A stretch of DNA of 31,851 bases from a virus. Shown one piece after another: positions 144 to 31,784 of this stretch. Location: positions 1 to 31,851 of the IMG/VR virus record IMGVR_UViG_3300037237_000167. One strand, written 5' to 3'. Made by a program: the position numbers and the translations under genes. Each line of letters begins with the position of its first letter. Position 1 is the stretch's first letter. The notes under the pieces are model-generated. The model was not told where the DNA came from and did not search any database. It saw only the letters and a list, made by a program, of their open reading frames with translations.

Positions 144-503
144 ATGTTTAAAACTTGTGTTCTCTTAGGAGCCGTCCTCTTGCTAACAGCAGCCGCTGCC
201 TCAGCTGACATCCCCGCTGTAGTCAATATCCGGGTAAACGGGCAGAACTACGAGCTGACCGAGCTTATAGAGCATAAGAAGCCTCTCTTTAATCGCCAGC
301 CAGAATATTGGAAGTACGAATGCTTAGATTCAAACTATCCGCTTGTCATACATCGAAAAGAATATAAAGTTAATGAGCAGCTGTTAAGGTATGTTCCTGA
401 CAAGAGAGATTTCTACACACGCCATCCTTGGGTGCAGAAATTTATGGTTCTAACTAATGCTGCTTCTATTGCTTTAGAGATTATCGAGCTTGTCAGGATT
501 TAA
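144..503 (+). CDS. Small secreted protein of unknown function
   Basis: This 119-residue protein begins with a Sec-type signal peptide: MFK, a hydrophobic core at residues 5-16, then an alanine-rich stretch ending ASA before Asp22, the likely cleavage site. The mature part of about 98 residues is polar and rich in Tyr, Lys and Arg, with a single Cys near residue 50. I do not recognise a family. I chose the ATG at 144 over an in-frame TTG at 126 because GAGGTG lies 6 nt upstream of it and because the signal peptide then starts correctly. It is the only plus-strand gene in this corner, has its own promoter and repeat array, and is closed by a terminator. It would act in the periplasm, at the envelope or outside the cell. 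A host-surface or superinfection role is a guess. Confidence 0.7.
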   Translation: MFKTCVLLGAVLLLTAAAASADIPAVVNIRVNGQNYELTELIEHKKPLFNRQPEYWKYECLDSNYPLVIHRKEYKVNEQLLRYVPDKRDFYTRHPWVQKFMVLTNAASIALEIIELVRI

Positions 504-12445: not shown

Positions 12446-13483
12446 ATGGTAACGATATTATCTCCAGACACTATAACTGCTAGTACACTCTCGTACTACA
12501 ATCGTAAGCTCAGAGATGAGTACTTCACATCTACACCGTTTACTGAATTCTTGCTGAATGTAGGCATCAAGCCTGTTGAAGGTGGCTTAAGTTATACGCA
12601 ACCGATCATGTACACGCTGTCCTCTCAGGCAGATGTATGGGGCGGTGGCGTGCAGCAACTCTCCGCTAACTTTGTTCCTAATACTACAAATGCTGTTTGG
12701 AACCCTGTTTATTACTACGGCTCCGTGGCAATTCCTGATACAACAGCGATTTTGAATCAAGGGCAAGCGCAAATTATCGACATTGTAGAGGCTCAATACG
12801 AGCAGATGCTTATGTCCTTAATAGAACGCTTCTCTATCGATTGTTATTCTGACGGCACACCTAGAAATGGCTTCTTGGTGCCTCAAGGATTAAGGGCAAT
12901 CTGTACAAGTGATGCCGACCCAGGCGGCGGCGCCTACGGGGGAATAACCCGGGTGGGTAGCTCCGGTTATTGGGGCGCACCAGTTGGAGCAGCACCGTGG
13001 TGGAATGCCAATATTTTACCAATAAATAACGGCCCCACTGTCGTTTGGTCCAAAGCTTCTGTGAATCCTGGTACTTCTACCACGATGTCTTACAATGCCT
13101 TATTCGCTTTGACCATCGCAGCTACTGTAGGCATGTATCGCCCGCTTGCTATTTTTGGAGATGCTATTGCCTACCAAGCAGTTGGTAATTTGTTTGTAGC
13201 TATCGCTCGCGAAAGTGCTCTTGAATCAGTCTTTAAACAAGGCGCACGCGGTTTTGCTTTTGGCGATATCCCGATATTCCAAGACGACAAAGCACCATCC
13301 GGCTCTTTGTTCACAGTAAATGATTTGCTTGAACTTCGCGTATGGCGTAATGCGCTATTCGCTGAAACCCCGTGGCGGCAGCCCTCGAACGCGATGGTCA
13401 ATATAAAATATCTACTCTTGATCTGCGCTCTTGTTCATTCACGCCCCAACACCATGGCTTATATGTCTGGCATAACTGGTTAG
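12446..13483 (+). CDS. Major capsid protein (HK97-like fold)
   Basis: This 345-residue protein forms the icosahedral shell. The segment CYSDGTPRNGFLVPQGLRAI (residues 133-152), then GGAYGGITR (161-169) and a Trp-rich stretch (WWNAN), matches a widespread phage capsid family in which a Gly-Leu-x-x-I-x patch is followed by G-G-I-x-R. The C-terminal half has the mixed alpha/beta look of the HK97 A and P domains. AGGA lies about 11 nt upstream of the ATG. It is not cleaved from a visible prodomain, and a separate scaffold precedes it. Confidence 0.85.
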   Translation: MVTILSPDTITASTLSYYNRKLRDEYFTSTPFTEFLLNVGIKPVEGGLSYTQPIMYTLSSQADVWGGGVQQLSANFVPNTTNAVWNPVYYYGSVAIPDTTAILNQGQAQIIDIVEAQYEQMLMSLIERFSIDCYSDGTPRNGFLVPQGLRAICTSDADPGGGAYGGITRVGSSGYWGAPVGAAPWWNANILPINNGPTVVWSKASVNPGTSTTMSYNALFALTIAATVGMYRPLAIFGDAIAYQAVGNLFVAIARESALESVFKQGARGFAFGDIPIFQDDKAPSGSLFTVNDLLELRVWRNALFAETPWRQPSNAMVNIKYLLLICALVHSRPNTMAYMSGITG

Positions 13484-13503
13484 TCACAAAGGAGTTTTTA
13501 TCA

Positions 13504-14013
13504 ATGCCTTCACCAACAAGTTCATGGGGACAATCAAACTGGTCTGATGTTTACGCACCAGTGGGCTCAACGCCAACAGTGCCGGTAGGCTCAGGGCTGC
13601 AAGCTGGACAATGCGAGACGCTTTTTGATGGCTCAGTTGTGCAGTTCTTAGACTTTGTGGCTTCAACAGTAGCCGGTGCTGCCTGTATACCGGCCACACC
13701 GTTTACTGGCTATACGGTTACTCCAGCCACAGCGGCCCTTCAGATTGTTACTGCTATCAACGATAGAGCCGGCGGCGGCCTTGGCACAAGCAATGTGACT
13801 ATAGCAGCCAATAGTTATGCTTGGGGTACCATTGCTGGTTTTTGTTATCCGCTATGCGTGAACGCGCTAGCAGCCGGTAAATATGCTGTAGCTAGTGCAA
13901 TATCGGCTCAATTAAAATTGCAAGTAGTAGGCACTGATCCTCAGTCCAATATACTGAACTTAGTTGTAGTGGGCTCATCTCCTGCTCAAAGCCTCTGTCA
14001 AATTACATACTAG
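13504..14013 (+). CDS. Structural protein after the capsid, unknown
   Basis: This 169-residue protein is rich in Ala, Gly, Ser, Thr and Val, with very few charged residues and a beta-rich look (NLVVVGSSPAQ near the end). I took the ATG at 13504, with AAAGGAG about 9 nt upstream. A longer in-frame opening at 13372 overlaps the capsid gene and has no SD. Its location after the capsid gene and before the adaptor suggests a decoration, fibre or head-completion protein. Confidence 0.65.
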   Translation: MPSPTSSWGQSNWSDVYAPVGSTPTVPVGSGLQAGQCETLFDGSVVQFLDFVASTVAGAACIPATPFTGYTVTPATAALQIVTAINDRAGGGLGTSNVTIAANSYAWGTIAGFCYPLCVNALAAGKYAVASAISAQLKLQVVGTDPQSNILNLVVVGSSPAQSLCQITY

Positions 14014-14031
14014 TCAATGGAGGGCTGATAA

Positions 14032-14799
14032 ATGGCCCTCACTTTAAGAGACGGGCACTACTTCACTCGTTCGATGGTTGGCGAATTAGAACAATTCCGC
14101 TGGTCAGATGCGTTCATAAACTTTTCGCTTAATAACAGGGCGCAAGACTTCTGTTTGCCTGCCGGGCTGTCCACTTGGTTTTATAACGTGCCCTTAGCAG
14201 CAGGCTCACAAGAAGGACCTCTACCGATTGACTTAGATCAAGTGCGAGCAGTGAAATTCTTCGCCGGGCAGCTCTTCCCTTTGCAATATAAGGATTGGGA
14301 TGAGTTACAAACTGGTGCTTTTACCGGCTCTATCCCGTTATGGTTCTATATAAAGACCGACACTACTCAGCTCACTCCTCAGCAAATAGGTTCAGACATT
14401 GCCGTTATCGATCTTCTTCCTGCCAACCCGCAAGGCGGTGATTATCGTCAGGTAATAGGAGTTTGGCCTATTTTAGAAGCTACCGGTAATATACACGTTT
14501 GGTATACCGCCTATCACCCTTTGATGACTGAGCCTCAAAGTAAATGCATGATCCCGCGCCCATTTCTTGATGGCTGGGCAGCTGGTGCTATAGCTGACTG
14601 CCTAAGAATTGAAAAAGCATACTCGGAGGCTGATATATGGGAGGCACGCTTTGCTATGCGCAAGGAAGCCTATCGCGTATACGCTCAGACTCATAAGCAA
14701 GTATCGCAAGAGATGCGCTACGGATATGATGAGGCGCCATGGCGAGACAGCGCGTCATCTTCTGTGATTCTTATTGATCAGTTCCCCACTGGTCCATAG
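14032..14799 (+). CDS. Probable head-tail adaptor protein
   Basis: This 255-residue protein starts with a helical segment and FRWSDAFINFSLNNRAQDFC, followed by beta segments, the phrase NIHVWYTAYHPLM (residues about 158-170) and IPRPFLDGWAAGAIADCLRI, as in adaptor proteins of short-tailed phages that bind the portal ring. GGAGG lies 8 nt upstream of the ATG. It sits between the capsid proteins and the nozzle-like gene, the usual adaptor position. The assignment is by pattern and synteny, not by catalytic motif. Confidence 0.65.
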   Translation: MALTLRDGHYFTRSMVGELEQFRWSDAFINFSLNNRAQDFCLPAGLSTWFYNVPLAAGSQEGPLPIDLDQVRAVKFFAGQLFPLQYKDWDELQTGAFTGSIPLWFYIKTDTTQLTPQQIGSDIAVIDLLPANPQGGDYRQVIGVWPILEATGNIHVWYTAYHPLMTEPQSKCMIPRPFLDGWAAGAIADCLRIEKAYSEADIWEARFAMRKEAYRVYAQTHKQVSQEMRYGYDEAPWRDSASSSVILIDQFPTGP

Positions 14800-14811: not shown

Positions 14812-16572
14812 ATGGTCGCTCCTATTAAATCAGCTCTTGATGATGGCTTATTTCAACTGCAAGTCATGGACATGTCCGGCGGCTTGAACACTAACACCGG
14901 TGCCACATCTTTGGCACCTAATCAAACGCCTGATTGTCTAAATGTGATTGGCTTTCCAGGCAGATTGCAATATCGTGGTGGCTTTACTTTATTTTGCAGC
15001 TTGCCGGCATTAGCTGATCGCGAATATAGATTTTTTGATATTTCAGGCACTCAGCATTTGATGGTTTGGGCAGGCGGCGATCTCTATGACTGCAAAACCG
15101 GTACCGCTGTTTTAATTACAGCCACCGTCTATACAGCCGGGCAGCAAATCGCCGTTGTCGCCTCTAATTACATCATGTACTGGGCAACGCCAACAGTACC
15201 TTTAAGACAATATGACGGCACAACAGAAGCCGCAGTAGTCGACAGTATGGCAGTGGGCTCAGTGGCGCCACCAGCCGGCAGCTATCTGACTGTTTACAAC
15301 GGGCAATTAGTCATGCTGCAGCCGGTGATATCGAGTGTTACTTACAGCTCTTCTTTTATGTGGAGCGATGTGAATGATGCCACCACTTGGATCGGTGCCA
15401 ACATACAAGGAGTAGGCTCAGCTGATGGCGGAACGTGTCAATGGGCGCTAACTTTGGGTATACCGGCTATTGTAGTCGGCAAGTCTCAAGGGGCAAGTAA
15501 CCTCAATCTATTTATTTATACCGGCGCCTTAGCGCCCGGCAGTTTGACCCAAACGCCAATAAGCTGCCCGGTGGCTGCCTTAGATTCATATAGCGCGTGT
15601 GTGGTGCCATCTCGTCAAGGCTTGTCAACATGCATATTTATCGGCAGTGACGCTCATTTTTGGATGACTAACGGGGTAGAGGCTTGGATGGCTAGTGAGG
15701 ATATTCTTGCTCTAACAGAGGATTACATCAGAGATGCTATACAAGCACTACCCACTCAAAAGTTCTTCTCATCCTACTATACGAGGTGGCAGTACTATAT
15801 CTGTAGTATAGGCACTCAGACGCACTTTGTTTACAGGCCTGGGCAAAGACCAGAAGACACGCCTAGTTGGTGGCTGTTTGAAGGATGGCCATCTGGAGAC
15901 TTTGCCGACTTTATAGGCGCTGGTACAGGCGGCCTACAGGGTTTATTCACAGCGGCTAATACCGGCGCTGTACCAGGCGTCTTTCAAGTGGCAATGGATC
16001 AGACTTTGGATAATGGTGTTGACCCTACGCCACCGCCCTATTATACGACGCCATATCTACATGGCGGCAAGATAGAGCGCGAGAAGCAATATCAAAACTT
16101 CGCCTTAGAGACATATGATGTAGGCGTGCAATACAACATATCAGGGCTGTCTATTCCCCGTGCAGACGGCTATGTATACAACATAGATACGATAAATTTC
16201 GAAGATCCCGCAGCCTCGGCAGCTGAAATTGGTACATCAGGCACTTGGGATGTATCGACATGGGGCGCCTTTCTATGGGGTGGTGGTGCGGCCACTCTAG
16301 CGCAGCCCTATCAGCCTTGTATTAGTCATGCGCCAATTAGAGTGACGACTCTAGGCACTATCTGGGTGCCGCCTGGCGAGAAGCAGCCTCTAAAAACCTC
16401 AGCCGCTCAATTCAAAATATCTTGGGCAGGCGGCTTGCCTGACTTTCAAGTGCTTGCTTATAACGTGCGCTATATGGAACGTTCATTCGGCTTTGCCGGT
16501 AACGCCCCATATCAAACAGCCGGCGGCATAATCTCCACAACAGATCCTTATACAACCACAGGGGCTGAATAA
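14812..16572 (+). CDS. Probable tail nozzle / tail-tubular protein
   Basis: The 586-residue protein opens with MDMSGGLNTNTGATSLAPNQ (residues about 19-38), then PDCLNVIGFPG and a YRGG turn. This is the common start of T7 gp12 or P22 gp10-like nozzle proteins, in which a Gly-Gly-Leu-N-T patch precedes a beta-propeller. The rest is beta-rich with many Trp, Tyr and Gly residues. AGGAGGGCTAATAAATGG gives an SD, nearly identical to that of the previous gene. A nozzle directly after an adaptor, and no tape measure, argues for a short tail. Confidence 0.7.
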   Translation: MVAPIKSALDDGLFQLQVMDMSGGLNTNTGATSLAPNQTPDCLNVIGFPGRLQYRGGFTLFCSLPALADREYRFFDISGTQHLMVWAGGDLYDCKTGTAVLITATVYTAGQQIAVVASNYIMYWATPTVPLRQYDGTTEAAVVDSMAVGSVAPPAGSYLTVYNGQLVMLQPVISSVTYSSSFMWSDVNDATTWIGANIQGVGSADGGTCQWALTLGIPAIVVGKSQGASNLNLFIYTGALAPGSLTQTPISCPVAALDSYSACVVPSRQGLSTCIFIGSDAHFWMTNGVEAWMASEDILALTEDYIRDAIQALPTQKFFSSYYTRWQYYICSIGTQTHFVYRPGQRPEDTPSWWLFEGWPSGDFADFIGAGTGGLQGLFTAANTGAVPGVFQVAMDQTLDNGVDPTPPPYYTTPYLHGGKIEREKQYQNFALETYDVGVQYNISGLSIPRADGYVYNIDTINFEDPAASAAEIGTSGTWDVSTWGAFLWGGGAATLAQPYQPCISHAPIRVTTLGTIWVPPGEKQPLKTSAAQFKISWAGGLPDFQVLAYNVRYMERSFGFAGNAPYQTAGGIISTTDPYTTTGAE

Positions 16573-17741
16573 TGACATTCACTCCTGCTGTTCTTTTCCA
16601 GCCACCTTTTCCTATGACGCCTAACGCCGGGGTTATACCGTCTCAATACAATGCAAACTTACTGTATTTACTGACATTTATAAATACAGGACAAATAACA
16701 GCCGGCACTACTCTTTCAGCTATTGAATTGCAAGCGCCATCTCCTACTGTATTTGATGTGCAATTGGCTCGCGAATCTGCTGGAGTTTTGCAGCTATCTA
16801 ATGGCTCAGGCGGCGCGGCAAATCTTGATTTAACAGGCGGAAATTTAATTAATACCGACAGCCTTAGTATATTCGGCGGCGGTAGTAACATAAGGCCATT
16901 ACCTACAACTGGAACAATTTCTGGAGAGTACTGGCAGAGCGGGGCTTGGGTTCAAAGCGGGCCTATAACATCTAACCGTGCTCGCATTCACTTAACCAGC
17001 ACGATGACGATAAATACTACTTGGACAATTGCTACAGAGATATCCGGCGGTAGACCAGCAATTGCCGGCGGTTCATCAGCCAATACAGGACCCGGAGCAC
17101 CAGGCGGTGGGCTAGGTGGTGGTATGGGTGGCCAGGCAAGCGCCACTTCTGCTATAGGTGGAGCTGGTGGCGGACATGGTGGATTAGGCGGTGGCGGCGG
17201 CATAGCTGCCTCTGGCGGTGTCAGCGGTAATGGAGGCTGCACTTATCCGCTTGAATCTCTTTTAACTGGCTCAGGCGGCGGCGCTGGAGCATCGAATTTA
17301 GGTACATTAGGAGGGGCTGGCGGCGCTGGTGGTGGAAGTTTATATATAGAGTGTACCGGCGCAATTACTTTTAGCAGCACCGCTGCCATGATTGGAGCTG
17401 GAGGCGCTGGCGCTTCTGCTGCCGGCACTGGAGCTGGAGCCGGTGGCGGCGGCTCAGGCGCCGGCATTCAAATTAGATGCTTAAGTACTATATCCATTGC
17501 CGCAGGAGCTAGCATCACAGCCCCCGGCGGCAATGGTGCTGTTGCTCCAACTTCAGGAGCGGCAGGCGGCGCAGGCGGCGGCGGCATTATAGATATTAGT
17601 GGTTCTGCTGTAACCAATAGCGGCACAGTAACAGCATCAGGCGGCACAGGCGGCACAGGCGGAGCCGTAGTAGGACAATCTGGCGGCGCTGGTATTGTTA
17701 ACTTAAATAGCTTTGTACAACTCGTCAGGAGTTCTAATTAA
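16572..17741 (+). CDS. Glycine-rich tail fibre / receptor-binding tip protein
   Basis: The protein is 389 residues long. Residues 1-110 resemble a fibre N-terminus; residues about 160-375 are dominated by Gly-Gly and Ala-Gly-Gly runs of the kind that form polyglycine-II sandwiches in phage adhesins such as the T-even gp38 tips. Between the runs are conserved beta pieces (RARIHLTSTMTINTTWTI, YPLESLLTGSGGG, GGSLYIECTGAITFSSTAAM, GGAGIVNLNSF). It has no signal peptide. Residues 105-389 are colinear with the end of the exported minus-strand protein (28776-30833). The start overlaps the nozzle stop by 1 bp. It probably contacts the host receptor. Confidence 0.75.
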   Translation: MTFTPAVLFQPPFPMTPNAGVIPSQYNANLLYLLTFINTGQITAGTTLSAIELQAPSPTVFDVQLARESAGVLQLSNGSGGAANLDLTGGNLINTDSLSIFGGGSNIRPLPTTGTISGEYWQSGAWVQSGPITSNRARIHLTSTMTINTTWTIATEISGGRPAIAGGSSANTGPGAPGGGLGGGMGGQASATSAIGGAGGGHGGLGGGGGIAASGGVSGNGGCTYPLESLLTGSGGGAGASNLGTLGGAGGAGGGSLYIECTGAITFSSTAAMIGAGGAGASAAGTGAGAGGGGSGAGIQIRCLSTISIAAGASITAPGGNGAVAPTSGAAGGAGGGGIIDISGSAVTNSGTVTASGGTGGTGGAVVGQSGGAGIVNLNSFVQLVRSSN

Positions 17742-18361
17742 TGAGTGCCCTTGTAGTACCTAATGACTTTACTAACGGCGAACTAGCATTCTCTGCTCAA
17801 ATGAATGTGAATTTTACCGCTTGTGCTGCTGTGATCAATGGAGAGCTCGATACAACGAATTTCACAGCACTTGCCGCTATAACAGGCAGCCAGCTAGCAG
17901 CGAGCGCCGGTATAACCAATGCACAATTAGTAAATGGCAATAGCTTGTTTCCTTATGGTTCTGTTGTTGCTTGGTGGGCAGTAGATTCTACAATTCCCAC
18001 CGGCTGGGCTTTGTGTAATGGGCAGACGGCCACATGGCTAACTGGTCCTCATGCTACTGATAGCATCGTCTTGCCTAATCTTATCGGCATGTTCATAGAA
18101 GGCTCAGACATTACAAGTGGAGTAAGTCCGGGGAACGCTAGCGGCTATGGTAGTCAAGCAAATCAGTCTATATTTGGGGCGACTGCTCACACTCATACCT
18201 ATGCAGACACTACCGCCCTTAATGCTGCCGATCAATTATGCTTGGGGGCGGTCGGAGTGCAGGCAGCTAGGAATTTCCACACTCATACTCAAAGCGACAC
18301 AACCTCATCGGTAGATTTAGAGCCGCCTTGTTATGCCATGGTTTATATAATGAAGCTCTAG
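17741..18361 (+). CDS. Short tail fibre with collar domain, copy 1
   Basis: This 206-residue protein has an N-terminal attachment part (residues 1-65) and a phage Tail Collar domain: SLFPYGSVVAWWAVDSTIPT, GWALCNGQTA, LPNLIGMFIEGSDIT. It then has AHTHTYAD and a second HTHTQ, His-x-His motifs that bind metal in T4-type fibres, and ends YAMVYIMKL. Such proteins form trimeric short fibres touching the host surface. It overlaps the preceding fibre by 1 bp. The stop codon TAG is part of a TCTAGGAG cassette that provides the SD of the next gene. It is a tandem duplicate of the following gene. Confidence 0.88.
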   Translation: MSALVVPNDFTNGELAFSAQMNVNFTACAAVINGELDTTNFTALAAITGSQLAASAGITNAQLVNGNSLFPYGSVVAWWAVDSTIPTGWALCNGQTATWLTGPHATDSIVLPNLIGMFIEGSDITSGVSPGNASGYGSQANQSIFGATAHTHTYADTTALNAADQLCLGAVGVQAARNFHTHTQSDTTSSVDLEPPCYAMVYIMKL

Positions 18362-18627
18362 GAGTAAATAACAATGACAGCTTTAACCATACCTAATAGT
18401 TTTTCACCCGATACTGATGCGAATGCTCCGCCGGTAAACGCTAACTTTATAGCTATTGCTAGTGTAGTTAACGGTAATCTCGACACCACGAATTTATCAG
18501 CCGCCGCCGCTATACCGGGGAGCCAGCTGTCTGCTTCAGCCGGTATAACCAATGCACAATTAGTAAATGGCGCTAGCTTAGCTCCTTACGGCTCTGTTGT
18601 TGCTTGGTGGGCAGTAGATTCTACAAT
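17906..18627. repeat. Tandem gene duplication, exact blocks 633 bp apart
   Basis: The two collar-fibre genes share long exact DNA blocks at constant spacing: 33 bp at 17906-17938 and 18539-18571, and 35 bp at 17960-17994 and 18593-18627. The coding copies are equal in length (206 residues). This indicates a recent or still recombining duplication; the His-rich loops differ between copies. Confidence 0.9.
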
Positions 18628-18994
18628 CCCCACCGGCTGGGCTTTATGTAATGGACAAACAACCTTATGGTTGACAGGGCCTCATGCCGGAGCAAGCATA
18701 ACTCTGCCGAATCTAATTGGCATGATGATCCAAGGAGCTGATATAACAGGCGGCTCAAGTTCAGCTAATGCTGATGGCTTCGGTAGTCAAACCAATCAGT
18801 CTATATTTGGTACTACTACTCACACACATACTTATTCAGGCACTACAAGTACAGAAAGCGCAGATTCAGATACTACAACTGGCGGCACATTAACTGTAGC
18901 TGCTAAAAATCACACTCACACATATTCAGGCACAACGGCGGCAACAAGTCTTCAGCCCCCAGTCTATGCCATGGTTTATATAATGAAGCTCTAG
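18374..18994 (+). CDS. Short tail fibre with collar domain, copy 2
   Basis: The 206-residue paralogue of the preceding fibre has the same start region, the same collar block (PYGSVVAWWAVDSTIPTGWA) and the same ending (YAMVYIMKL). The variable middle differs: two HTHTYSGTT motifs flank a Ser/Thr/Asp-rich stretch instead of the first copy's loop. TAGGAG, which includes the previous stop codon, lies about 10 nt upstream of the ATG. The two copies could form mixed trimers or give two receptor specificities. The stop again overlaps an SD (CTAGGAGGG). Confidence 0.88.
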   Translation: MTALTIPNSFSPDTDANAPPVNANFIAIASVVNGNLDTTNLSAAAAIPGSQLSASAGITNAQLVNGASLAPYGSVVAWWAVDSTIPTGWALCNGQTTLWLTGPHAGASITLPNLIGMMIQGADITGGSSSANADGFGSQTNQSIFGTTTHTHTYSGTTSTESADSDTTTGGTLTVAAKNHTHTYSGTTAATSLQPPVYAMVYIMKL

Positions 18995-27748: not shown

Positions 27749-28003
27749 ATGGCTGAAGAATTTGGCGAATACTCAGAATTTTCTGAGCTGAATGCTTTGG
27801 GGAATCCTTCTAAAGTTATGTATGCAAAGGCAGCCGATGGTGGACACGCTGGTGTCGGACCAATTGGCAATACACGTCCTACAGGAATTGTAGCTGAAGG
27901 CATCAGCATTGATGTCGGTAAGAAGGATGAATACACAGCTATCCGTGAAGGCATGTCCACTGGAAAGAACAAAGATGCTAAGAGCATGTCATCCAGGAAA
28001 TGA
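27749..28003 (+). CDS. Unknown small protein before the endolysin
   Basis: This 84-residue protein has an acidic start (MAEEFGEYSEFSEL) and a Gly-rich middle with GPIGNTRPTGIVAEGIS. The basic tail ends KSMSSRK. AAGGAG lies 9 nt before the ATG, and the 3' end overlaps the endolysin start by 4 bp (ATGA). It has no membrane span, so it is not a holin. A tail-end structural or lysin-associated role is possible; no family is recognised. Confidence 0.65.
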   Translation: MAEEFGEYSEFSELNALGNPSKVMYAKAADGGHAGVGPIGNTRPTGIVAEGISIDVGKKDEYTAIREGMSTGKNKDAKSMSSRK

Positions 28004-28533
28004 GTACGGGACTTTTTCCGGCTGATATTATTATCTCGGCGCGAGAAGCCCAACAAAAGACGGGATGTTCGGCTTCAATAACGCTTGCTCAGTGGGCGTT
28101 AGAGTCAGACTATGGTCGTTATGACTTAGGCGGTAACAATCCTTTTGGCATGAAGGCACGCCCGCAGGACATAGCTGACGGTAACTTTGTGGTACAGCGA
28201 ACTTTAGAATGGGTAAGCAGCAACTTGCGCACTGATTGGGGCGGCTATCTTAAGTGTGAGGCTAAGTTCAGGAAATTCCCAACTATCTTAGATGCTTTCA
28301 TAGCGCACGGGGAATTATTGATGAATCCGCGCGGCCCTTATGCCTCAGCGCTGCCATTTTTAAAAGACACCAAACCGACAGTTAAATATATTACAGCCAT
28401 GGCTAAGACATATGCCACAGACCCTGATTATGCTAATAAGTTGATAGCGCTAGTTGATGAAAACAAATTAGGGCAATATGATCTTATGCCGGGGCAGGTC
28501 CGGCTGTCTGTGCTGGCGGCTGTACCGCAGTAG
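28000..28533 (+). CDS. Endolysin: glucosaminidase (GH73/FlgJ-type)
   Basis: The 177-residue protein matches the glucosaminidase fold that cuts the glycan strands of peptidoglycan. Visible motifs are SITLAQWALESDYGR (residues 26-40, likely catalytic Glu35), LGGNNPFGMK (43-52) and KFRKFPTILDAFIAHGELL (near 90-108), followed by a Tyr-x-x-A motif and a helical end. No signal peptide is present, so a holin or other exit route is needed. It is coupled to the upstream gene (ATGA overlap). Its last 50 bp overlap, tail to tail, a minus-strand gene. No nearby holin is evident. Confidence 0.88.
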   Translation: MSTGLFPADIIISAREAQQKTGCSASITLAQWALESDYGRYDLGGNNPFGMKARPQDIADGNFVVQRTLEWVSSNLRTDWGGYLKCEAKFRKFPTILDAFIAHGELLMNPRGPYASALPFLKDTKPTVKYITAMAKTYATDPDYANKLIALVDENKLGQYDLMPGQVRLSVLAAVPQ

Positions 28534-28771
28534 CACTAACAGCAGCAGTCATGTCGGCAAGCAAGGCGCTCACATTAGCCATAGTAGTTTTGCTGGCTGC
28601 TAATTGAGCTTGAGTATCAGCTAATAGCCCGGTCATAGTCATAGGTGTCAGCGCCAAGCCGGTATAAGGGTCAAACTGTTGAAAAGTAGCGGTTATGATG
28701 CTCACTCCGTCGTAGGATAAAGTGACAGTATTGGTGGCTTTAGCGTAAGCGTAGATATTCCAATCGATCAT
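28484..28771 (-). CDS. Small protein downstream of the exported fibre, unknown
   Basis: This 95-residue protein starts MIDWNIYAYAKATNTVTLSY and has beta-like segments up to residue 45. It continues with an Ala-, Thr- and Gln-rich helix (GLLADTQAQLAASKTTMANV) and a Pro/Ala tail. It begins 4 bp after the stop of the fibre-like gene, with no clear SD, so translation is probably coupled. Its 3' end runs antisense to the last 50 bp of the endolysin. The location suggests a fibre chaperone or accessory protein, but no family is recognised. It has no signal peptide. Confidence 0.6.
   Translation of the reverse strand: MIDWNIYAYAKATNTVTLSYDGVSIITATFQQFDPYTGLALTPMTMTGLLADTQAQLAASKTTMANVSALLADMTAAVSATAVQPPAQTAGPAPA
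28510..28536. repeat. Hairpin at the tail-to-tail gene junction
   Basis: GTGCTG (28510-28515) pairs with TAGCAC (28531-28536) with one G-T, and GCGG (28516-28519) pairs with CCGC (28525-28528) around a CTGTA loop, with a 2-nt bulge. It spans the endolysin stop codon, inside the region shared by both converging genes. No T-tract follows, so this is a structural element, perhaps an RNA-protecting or weak terminator fold. Confidence 0.4.
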
Positions 28772-28775
28772 TTTA

Positions 28776-30833
28776 TTAGCCGGGACAACGAGTATTAACA
28801 GTATAAGAATGGATATTCACAATACCAGCACCACCGGCAACACCATTAGCGTTAGTGTAATAAGCAACACCGGCAGCGCCGCCGGCTGCTGTCACAATAC
28901 CACCGCTAGTAATAGTAACTGTCGGTGCTGTTAAATCTATAATACCGCCGCCGCCGCCGCCGCCGCCGGTTGGCGCAGTAGTACCGGTACTGCCGCCGCC
29001 GGCCCCGCCAGGTGCTATTATGCTGCCGCTGGCATCAACAATGATTGATGTTTGACTTCTAATTTGTATACCCCCGCCTGAGCCGCCGCCGGCCCCATTT
29101 CCATAATTAGCAGTGAAGCTAGTACCTGCGCCGCCGGCTGCAACCATTGCAGCTGTGCTTGTAAAATGAACCTCGCCTGTACAATCTATTGCAAGAGAAC
29201 CTCCACCAGCACCACCAATAGGATATTGGCTGTTAGACTGAGAGCCGGCCCCACCACCGGAGCCGGTTAATAAGGAACTAATTGGATATGTTTGGCCACC
29301 GGGCACTGCTCCGATTAAAGAGGTGCTTATAAAGCCGCCGGCCCCGCCGGCACCGCCATGACCCCCGCCTGAGCCGCCTTGTCCATATCCAATATATCCA
29401 GGAGCAGCAGGCCCGCCGCCTAAACCAGCACCAGGACCCCCATAACCGACATTTGTTGCAGTTCCAACCTGTGCTATACCGCCGGCACATTCAGTATTTA
29501 TGGTCCATGCTCCGTTAATAGTCATGGTGCCGCTATTATGGATTCTAGCTTCAGTGCTGGTTATTGCTGTAGGCTGCACCCAGTTGGTATTGTTGTAATA
29601 CTCTCCGAGTAGTAAAGTAGTAGTTGGTGCTGCTGTAGTAGCGGCAAGCCCAGTATCATCAAAAGGGGAAGTGGTGCTATTGCCGATTAAGCCGGTGGTT
29701 GAGGGGCTAGCGCCGCCGCCCACGAAGGTGCGATAGATGTTATAGGAAGCAGCACCAGCCACAGGAGTCCAAGCAATTATGTTGTAATTAGTGCCATTTA
29801 GGTCTAATTCCCCTGTTGTTGTCGTTGTTGCAGCAGGTGGAGCAGTGATTGTCACCCCGTCAGCCATGACGCTGGCCACTGTATAACTCCAGTGAACAGA
29901 AGAGGCAGTGCCGCCTTGGGTAATAGTAGGGGCAGAGGGGCTAGCAACAGGTAACGGTCTTACCCCGGAGCTACCGCCGAAGGTCAAGGAATTATCATAA
30001 GTATTAAATGCAGGGGCAGCTGAGGAGGCGCCTGATAGATTTGGTCCGCCAAAGACGGTTAAAGCAGCTTGAGAAGCTCCGGAGCCTGTGCCGCCTTGAG
30101 TTGTTGCAGCAGTACCGGAAATATCGGTAAAAGCGGGCTGGCTGGCTACAGGCACCCCTAAAGTAGAAATTGAATTTATCCAATTGCTGGTAACTGCCGC
30201 TAGAGACTCCACCCCGCCGATAGTAGTAGCTGAAGGAGCGGCTAATGTAAGAGTACCGGTAGTTGTAATAGTGCCGCCGGATAAACCCACGCCGGTAGCA
30301 ATCGAGGTCACAGTGCCTGAGCCGCCTGGAGCTGCGAAGGTGCCATCAGCTCTTAGAAAGTTAGAAGTACCGCCTCCTGAGGCCGGCACCATGCCTTGAA
30401 GGGCGCTAGTAAATACATTAGGAATAGTAGTGGCTTGAGTGGCTGTAAGAGCTGATGGTACTGTTGAGCCGCCTGAGACATTACCTAAGATTGTTAGATT
30501 AGCTATTGAAGGGAATTGAGCGAGAGTGAAGTTGCCTGAGACATCGGAAAATGCCGGTTGAGTAGCTGAAGGGACGCCGGCTGTTGAAATTGTATTGATC
30601 CATTTATGAGTAACTGCTGCTAGAGATTCTACCCCGCCGATAGTAGTAGCTGAAGGAGCGGCTAATGTGACAGTGCCGGTAGTTGTAATAGGACCGCCGG
30701 TTAAGCCCACGCCGGTATCAACTTCAGTAACGCCGCCGCCGCCGCCGCCGCCTGAACCCCCGATTTGATAAACATCGGCACAAGCAGGGGAAGTTAACAG
30801 CAGGCAAAGGAAAAGAGTAAGTAATCGTTTCAT
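28776..30833 (-). CDS. Exported fibre-like adhesin with virion-type receptor domain
   Basis: The protein is 685 residues long. It has a signal peptide MKRLLTLFLCLLLTSPACA (cleavage before Asp20), a Gly8 linker, two shaft repeats (36-100 and 176-240, GVGL[ST]GG with TTTGT), and NFLRADGTFAAPG between them, a tail-fibre phrase. An FN3-like domain (~296-405, AWTPVAGAASYNIYR) and a Gly-rich adhesin part (410-685) follow. The last part is colinear with the phage's fibre at 16572-17741, with the FN3-like domain inserted between the shared RPLP and GEY motifs. I took ATG 30833 over a longer opening at 30917 because it gives the signal peptide and overlaps the previous stop by 1 bp. It would leave the cytoplasm through Sec. 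The decoy role is inferred. Confidence 0.8.
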   Translation of the reverse strand: MKRLLTLFLCLLLTSPACADVYQIGGSGGGGGGGVTEVDTGVGLTGGPITTTGTVTLAAPSATTIGGVESLAAVTHKWINTISTAGVPSATQPAFSDVSGNFTLAQFPSIANLTILGNVSGGSTVPSALTATQATTIPNVFTSALQGMVPASGGGTSNFLRADGTFAAPGGSGTVTSIATGVGLSGGTITTTGTLTLAAPSATTIGGVESLAAVTSNWINSISTLGVPVASQPAFTDISGTAATTQGGTGSGASQAALTVFGGPNLSGASSAAPAFNTYDNSLTFGGSSGVRPLPVASPSAPTITQGGTASSVHWSYTVASVMADGVTITAPPAATTTTTGELDLNGTNYNIIAWTPVAGAASYNIYRTFVGGGASPSTTGLIGNSTTSPFDDTGLAATTAAPTTTLLLGEYYNNTNWVQPTAITSTEARIHNSGTMTINGAWTINTECAGGIAQVGTATNVGYGGPGAGLGGGPAAPGYIGYGQGGSGGGHGGAGGAGGFISTSLIGAVPGGQTYPISSLLTGSGGGAGSQSNSQYPIGGAGGGSLAIDCTGEVHFTSTAAMVAAGGAGTSFTANYGNGAGGGSGGGIQIRSQTSIIVDASGSIIAPGGAGGGSTGTTAPTGGGGGGGGIIDLTAPTVTITSGGIVTAAGGAAGVAYYTNANGVAGGAGIVNIHSYTVNTRCPG
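30114..30308. repeat. Shaft repeat, second copy (offset 420 bp)
   Basis: This segment of the exported fibre-like gene repeats 30534-30728 at a spacing of exactly 420 bp (140 codons). A 38-bp block is identical at 30211-30248 and 30631-30668, and the rest is strongly similar. It encodes the shaft repeat of residues 176-240. Homologous recombination between copies would delete 140 residues without shifting the frame. Confidence 0.85.
30534..30728. repeat. Shaft repeat, first copy (offset 420 bp)
   Basis: Partner of 30114-30308; it encodes residues 36-100 of the exported fibre-like protein. Both copies contain SATTIGGVESLAAVT, followed by a W-I-N, a G-V-P and an S-D/T-D-x-S-G end. Confidence 0.85.
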
Positions 30834-31183
30834 CAGTGGGCATCGACTCCGATTGTGACGCTGCCGGAAGCAGAGATTAGGTAGAAAGTAGTCAAAGGCA
30901 CGCCTTGATAGGTCCAAGAGCTGGAAGGATAAATTGGGAAGGAGCCGGCTCCAGTAGTAGCAGCAGCGGTTAGAGGGCTAAAGAATACATTAGTGGCGCT
31001 ATCGTTAACTAAAGTGATATTGCCTGAGGCGGCGGTCAAAGTGATGAGAGTAGAGGTATCGGCGGCGGTAACTTGAGTAGCGGTGTGCCCGGTGGGTCCC
31101 TGTCCGCCGTAGGTAATTTGATCGGCATAGGCGGGCCATCCTAACAAGAGAAGACACCCAACTAGGACGCTAATTAATTTCAT
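30833..31183 (-). CDS. Small exported structural-type protein
   Basis: This 116-residue protein has the signal peptide MKLISVLVGCLLLLGWPAYA (cleavage before Asp21). The mature part is Thr-, Ala- and Ser-rich and beta-like, with TLITLTAASGNITLVNDSAT (residues ~45-64), followed by FSPLTAAATTGAGSFPIYPS. This is the look of small capsid-fibre or decoration domains in phage structural modules. Its stop overlaps the start of the large exported protein by 1 bp, so the two are coupled. The ATG has AGAGG 6 nt upstream, but that SD is buried in a hairpin (31187-31209). The role is inferred: a partner or anchor of the large protein. Confidence 0.7.
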   Translation of the reverse strand: MKLISVLVGCLLLLGWPAYADQITYGGQGPTGHTATQVTAADTSTLITLTAASGNITLVNDSATNVFFSPLTAAATTGAGSFPIYPSSSWTYQGVPLTTFYLISASGSVTIGVDAH

Positions 31184-31220: not shown

Positions 31221-31784
31221 TTAGGCGATGCCTGTCAATTGCTCATGTTTTTTACCACAGCCGCCATGTTTAGGATTGCAATAGAAGCCTGAGCCAAATT
31301 TATTAGGCATACAAGCAACCACGCCGCAAGCAGTACAGCTAACGAGGACAACTTCGTGCTTACCATTAGGCTCAGGATTGTCATACTCCGAATCGCTGCT
31401 ATCGGCTGTTGGAATGCAGAAGACTTGCACTAAGCAATTTTTAAGAGCGCTTGTCATAGCTTTATTAGCTGATTTATCCCATTGATCCATACCTTCGCCG
31501 GTAGTGAGGGCCACGACGCTAGAGCCGTCCGGGGCAAAGAATCTAAACTCTACTTCTACTAGAGTAGTGGTGTTGTTGTCTCGTTGTTCGCGGGTAACTT
31601 TCTGTACAAAGGGGATGAAGAAAACGCCATTATTAGCCAATACGCTTTGTAAAGCGGCGTAGATATCGTCAATAGCTCTAAATTTATATTTCAGTCCACC
31701 ACCGGCGATCGCAGTTTTAGCTACTGGGCCAACTTCGCTCATGATTTTTGACATGAGAGTATAAATATCTTTCTTGTCTTGCAT
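31221..31784 (-). CDS. ERF-family single-strand annealing recombinase with zinc ribbon
   Basis: The 187-residue protein matches the Erf/ssDNA-annealing recombinases (like P22 Erf). YKFRAIDDIYAAL (residues 33-45), VLANNGVFFIP (48-58) and VEFRFFAPDGSSVVALTTGE (78-97) are seen, then MDQWDKSANKAMTSALKN (99-116) and LVQVFCIPTAD (118-128), all typical family blocks. After a short linker a Cys cluster (150, 153, 158, 169, 176) with CTACG and CGKKH makes a zinc ribbon. AAAGGA is about 9 nt before the ATG. It anneals single strands during phage recombination or circularisation. It leads the minus-strand transcript that reaches the exported genes. Confidence 0.9.
   Translation of the reverse strand: MQDKKDIYTLMSKIMSEVGPVAKTAIAGGGLKYKFRAIDDIYAALQSVLANNGVFFIPFVQKVTREQRDNNTTTLVEVEFRFFAPDGSSVVALTTGEGMDQWDKSANKAMTSALKNCLVQVFCIPTADSSDSEYDNPEPNGKHEVVLVSCTACGVVACMPNKFGSGFYCNPKHGGCGKKHEQLTGIA

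Follow-up and report, generated by a model that had tools for sequence, protein, structure and literature searches.

The window (the whole stretch of viral DNA analysed here, 31,851 nucleotides) encodes a 685-aa minus-strand protein that we read as a Sec-exported, non-virion chimeric binding fibre, built from tail-fibre parts and acting at the envelope. Judging from sequence, we put the probability of this reading at about 45%, and we favour it over, in this order, a virion fibre, a decoy for the phage's own receptor, a host adhesin carried as cargo and a spare gene whose product is not exported. The reading draws on two predicted signal peptides, the coupling of the genes that carry them, the shaft and tip homologies, a missing anchor and an accessory position in the genome. 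The parts of the gene and its neighbours were as follows:

28776..30833, minus strand: predicted exported chimeric fibre, 685 aa, with signal peptide, Gly hinge, two shaft repeats, FN3-like segment and Gly-rich tip
30777..30833, minus strand: predicted Sec signal peptide MKRLLTLFLCLLLTSPACA with ACA cleavage site and without lipobox, by an in-house rule
29952..30734, minus strand: two tandem shaft repeats (GLTGGPITTTGT ... HKWINTISTAGVPSATQPAFSDVSG), from matches to the fibre of another phage (L003) and to a Bdellovibrionales MAT-like protein
29634..29942, minus strand: putative FN3-like segment between shaft and tip, read by eye from NIIAWTPVAGAASYNIYRTF
28779..29618, minus strand: Gly-rich tip, homologous to a virion fibre tip; beta-solenoid with Gly-rich loops in the model
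30833..31183, minus strand: predicted exported small beta-sandwich protein, 116 aa, translationally coupled to the fibre; from signal score, homologues and model
28484..28771, minus strand: signal-less protein of 95 aa, encoded 4 nt after the fibre gene
31221..31784, minus strand: Erf single-strand annealing protein (phrog_155, Pfam ERF), first gene of the same-strand run
28000..28533, plus strand: endolysin (phrog_3513), converging on the cluster

Signal peptides were scored by an in-house rule that combines n-region charge, h-region and AXA site. The N-terminus of the 685-aa fibre (MKRLLTLFLCLLLTSPACA followed by DVY) is built like a Sec signal and scored 3.92 with an AXA site, and the virion fibre with the related tip had no signal, as the sequence-only reading had stated of this pair. 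The 116-aa protein scored 4.01, and the stop of its gene overlaps the ATG of the 685-aa gene as TGATG. This coupling, together with the strong signal on the upstream gene, rules out a mis-called start. Scores of at least 3.8 were seen in 0 of the 142 ORFs of four relative phages, against which two coupled signal-bearing genes argue for action at the envelope.

By eye, the signal directly precedes the Gly hinge and then the shaft. The shaft repeats were 69-71% identical to the L003 phage fibre, a 404-aa protein without signal, with which the 685-aa fibre is colinear apart from its N-terminus and FN3-like segment. The latter segment is not present in the L003 fibre; since it was read by eye and had no Pfam match, its FN3-type identity is tentative. 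In our phages collection, only two partial matches to the shaft were found as sequence-close relatives. The shaft was also 58-62% identical to a MAT-like protein from a Bdellovibrionales MAG (L209). MAT (mosaic adhesive trimer) fibres of Bdellovibrio bacteriovorus are exported phage-like fibres that serve as adhesins, and all 21 described MATs have a beta-rich domain of ~130 aa directly after the signal peptide (Caulton et al. 2024, PMC10769870). The shaft identity, with the precedents of MAT and of the prophage adhesin PblB (PMC10769870, PMC4508584), argues for the envelope reading. No lipobox ([LVI][ASTVI][GAS]C) was found within the first 30 residues of the 685-aa fibre, no outer-membrane anchor was found in it, and the MAT N-domain gave no match with a profile from 21 cellular relatives, which is a crude model. 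These three results count against the envelope reading, as they give the fibre no evident route to the surface.

The virion fibres of the phage are encoded far from this cluster, on the other strand:

16572..17741, plus strand: virion fibre, 389 aa, with related tip and the anchor of the phage group; from tblastn and anchor profile
17741..18994, plus strand: two tandem collar-type fibres, 206 aa each, sharing the N-terminal anchor of the 389-aa fibre; from anchor profile

A tblastn search of the record aligned residues 371-679 of the 685-aa fibre with 16806-17720 (plus strand) at 51% identity (E 4e-51). The local alignment score of the two fibres was 637, compared with 225 +/- 17 (maximum 282) for block shuffles that preserved regional Gly content; this margin indicates homology and rules out an artefact of Gly-rich composition. 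The colinearity of the C-terminal ~275 residues with the virion fibre, proposed in the sequence-only reading, was thus confirmed at an identity well above the shuffles, and every shared motif that it quoted is present. Its description of the protein as a paralogue of the phage's own tip held for homology and failed for recent self-duplication. The virion tip was 69% identical to the L003 tip and 49-51% identical to the exported tip, and the exported tip was about equally distant from all four other tips compared (45-51% identity). A five-tip tree (5 rows) gave no resolved branching, and a clade test did not reject a grouping of the exported and virion tips (p-AU 0.34); a fresh self-duplication is not supported. 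With tips only ~50% identical and no such duplication, the receptors of the two tips need not match.

AlphaFold modelled the tip as a beta-solenoid with Gly-rich loops (mean pLDDT 69). Its best structural matches were bactofilin (6ria, Z 11.2, 89 residues aligned, rmsd 2.0 A), tapirin and haemagglutinin-type solenoids, and no solved relative was found among PDB sequences. The analogy with the polyglycine tips of T-even phages found no support in the solenoid model or the PDB sequence search, although gp38 could have been missed. Sequence-close relatives of the tip were absent from the phages collection, and a pattern scan of bacterial genomes returned none. A tip profile matched Gly-rich proteins in 4 of 141 Bdellovibrionales genomes, a result to be read with their Gly-rich content in mind; one of them, L288, is a 717-aa protein with a signal peptide that consists almost wholly of Gly-rich repeats matching the phage tip profile. 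These matches, and that signal-bearing protein in particular, argue for the envelope reading.

Tail fibres are expected to assemble in the cytoplasm. The phage is related by capsid, terminase, portal and other genes to G003, G005, G006 and G007, in which the gene after a ~580-750-aa tail gene encodes a fibre that carries the N-terminal anchor of the group, MTxxxxPxxFxxxTxxxAxxVNxNF. Over the window, the anchor profile detected the 389-aa and both 206-aa fibres (E 1e-26 to 1e-33) and did not match the 685-aa fibre, which argues for a role outside the virion. The capsid protein had no sequence-close relatives in the phages collection. A search of 141 Bdellovibrionales genomes with the phage terminase gave no match, a result that says nothing on the host.

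The fibre and 116-aa genes lie in a run with Erf, between it and the endolysin and outside the structural operon. In the relative G006, endolysin (plus strand) and Erf (minus strand) face each other 157 nt apart with nothing between them, so the cluster of the window occupies an accessory position, again in favour of the envelope reading; the two endolysins are not homologous to each other. In its mature part, the 116-aa protein shows homology to signal-less proteins of two relatives, one of 99 aa in G005 (score 122 vs 37 +/- 7 for shuffles) and one of 121 aa in G003. The G005 homologue sits after the endolysin and before a 222-aa protein that we read as fibre-like. The window thus has predicted exported versions of two proteins, the fibre and the 116-aa protein, whose relatives are cytoplasmic. 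In its AlphaFold model the 116-aa protein is a small beta-sandwich, as is frequent among small phage proteins, and the phages collection contained no sequence-close relatives of it. The 95-aa protein was considered as a possible fibre chaperone; a search for its relatives found none. A third predicted exported protein of 119 aa (MFKTCVLLGAVLLLTAAAASADIP...) is encoded near the left end of the window (144-503, plus strand), and no family was found for it.

With the same signal rule, IMG/VR contigs (ORFs with complete N-termini) and GTDB genomes were surveyed for the shaft motif GLTGGPITTTGT. The rule was passed by 14 of 113 shaft-motif ORFs in IMG/VR; one, L091, looks false, leaving 13 of 113, nine of which start with ATG and some of which are near-duplicates. 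In GTDB, 78 of 90 shaft-motif ORFs had a Sec signal, largely in Bacteroidota and Bdellovibrionota. Among phage proteins with this shaft, roughly one in nine therefore bears a signal, whereas most of those in cells do, and this difference favours the envelope reading. It points to a pool of exported and virion fibres that is common to phages and to bacterial adhesins like MAT, with movement between them. Exported phage-style fibres in bacteria are mostly cell-surface adhesins, so the 685-aa fibre probably acts at the envelope of the infected cell. Apart from one partial match, the N-termini of the other signal-bearing fibres had no sequence-close relatives in the phages collection.

Eighteen contigs (the window, the 14 IMG/VR survey contigs, G002, W01 and G004) were compared for pairs of fibres with and without signal that share a C-terminal part. 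Such a pair was found in the window only. The recurrence of the pair in metagenomes that the sequence-only reading had suggested looking for was seen in 0 of the 17 other contigs, ~13 of which had a long signal-bearing ORF; since several are fragments, this absence is weak evidence. In the Bacteroidota-type phages, two adjacent fibres have a common N-terminal domain instead. Because one phage, that of the window, holds both the exported and the virion form with related tips, the effect of exported fibres on adsorption is directly testable.

Further signal-bearing proteins were seen in several phages. In L159 (contig G010, 5358-10147) and L157 (contig G008, 9079-16223), the tail-fibre position holds two fibre-like genes, each with a Sec signal, and the two have a common post-signal domain. 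The circular phage genome L145 (MW202444, 36356-40476) encodes a 1253-aa signal-bearing fibre followed by a short signal-bearing protein. Another phage with the tip described here encodes a 133-aa signal-bearing protein with a tail-fibre domain among its structural genes (L010:4080-4481, plus strand). By eye, L003 has a signal peptide before an apparent proteasome-subunit-like fold (15056-15535, minus strand) and a 456-aa protein resembling a sedolisin-type protease (13342-14712, minus strand).

That the 685-aa protein is a virion fibre, either exported and attached to particles at lysis or retained despite its hydrophobic N-terminus, is the strongest of the alternatives, although somewhat unlikely. 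At the tail-fibre position, G002, G008, G010, G012 and W01 have signal-bearing fibres, and in Bacteroidota-type phages these are the only fibre-like genes seen there, which would fit virion fibres and counts against the envelope reading. The 116-aa family adjoins lysis or structural genes in G005 and G003, where it has no signal, and the colinear shaft and tip protein of L003 also lacks one. Against this, the 685-aa fibre lacks the anchor that the phage's three virion fibres share with those of its relatives, and its gene lies on the opposite strand, with Erf. We know of no description of virion assembly after passage through the periplasm.

Under the envelope reading, Sec would deliver the 685-aa fibre and the 116-aa protein to the periplasm, from which both might get outside at lysis or by some other route. 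The tip may then bind envelope glycans or proteins, as the MAT or PblB adhesin does. For an apparently lytic phage, a change in how particles adsorb to infected or lysed cells would be the most plausible benefit, and masking of the phage's own receptor would be one version of it. No integrase was recognised in the phage, whose contig may be incomplete, and this makes effects on adsorption the more likely benefit.

The sequence-only reading had proposed a decoy: the exported copy could occupy or mimic the receptor site on the infected cell and so block superinfection or the re-adsorption of progeny. For the phage's own receptor, with re-adsorption to cells and debris included, we consider this unlikely, and we are just as doubtful of a version of superinfection exclusion in which a second fibre, related to the virion tip and exported along with a partner dedicated to it, would mask the receptor on infected cells and debris. 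The same phage does have a cytoplasmic fibre whose tip is homologous, and the lack of a recognised integrase fits such a role. However, the two tips are only ~50% identical and no nearer each other than the tips of other phages, display on the outside would call for an anchor or lipobox that was not found, as Sec alone reaches the periplasm only, and the other contigs with signal-bearing fibres, several of them partial, had no such pair. The sequence-only reading knew of no described decoy of this kind; a signal-bearing tail-fibre decoy was likewise not found among openly licensed papers, but exported phage-like fibres are already known (MAT, PMC10769870; PblB, PMC4508584).

Less probable still is an adhesin carried as cargo for the benefit of the host, like the MAT proteins or PblB. 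Relatives of the shaft and tip occur in signal-bearing cellular proteins, of Bdellovibrionota in particular, and adhesins of both kinds have been described (PMC10769870, PMC4508584), but the ~130-aa MAT N-domain was not matched by the crude model, and with no integrase recognised the host is unlikely to gain any lasting benefit. We give very little weight to a failure of N-terminal export in the real host, with the gene as a decaying or spare fibre copy. A simple rule served to judge the signal, but the ORF is long and intact, both coupled genes have strong signals, and a good Shine-Dalgarno sequence precedes the first of them, the 116-aa gene.

Llp of T5 and Cor are phage-encoded superinfection-exclusion proteins at the envelope, small exported lipoproteins that act at the receptor. 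Like them, the 685-aa fibre is a phage protein with predicted export; unlike them, it is fibre-related, not a small lipoprotein, and has no lipobox. The virion fibre of L003 (404 aa, IMG/VR phage) matches it colinearly in shaft (69-71%) and tip (51% identity), and differs in lacking the signal peptide and the FN3-like segment and in lying in a structural operon. PblB of Streptococcus prophages is a tail-fibre homologue with an adhesive role and, in S. pneumoniae, a putative signal peptide; its gene belongs to a tail operon, that of a temperate Gram-positive phage, and the protein is important for tail morphogenesis in phage SM1 (PMC4508584). The 685-aa protein resembles PblB as a phage tail-fibre homologue with a signal peptide, PblB's being putative, whereas PblB lies in the tail operon and has no second tip copy described. 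Unlike the MATs, the 685-aa fibre is phage-encoded and has a Gly-rich solenoid tip, with no S74 domain seen. The 58-62% identity to the Bdellovibrionales shaft marks the shaft as of the phage type seen in MATs, which would be trimeric. Like the MATs, the fibre combines a signal peptide, a phage-type fibre shaft and an adhesive-type C-terminal tip, the part that is variable in MATs.
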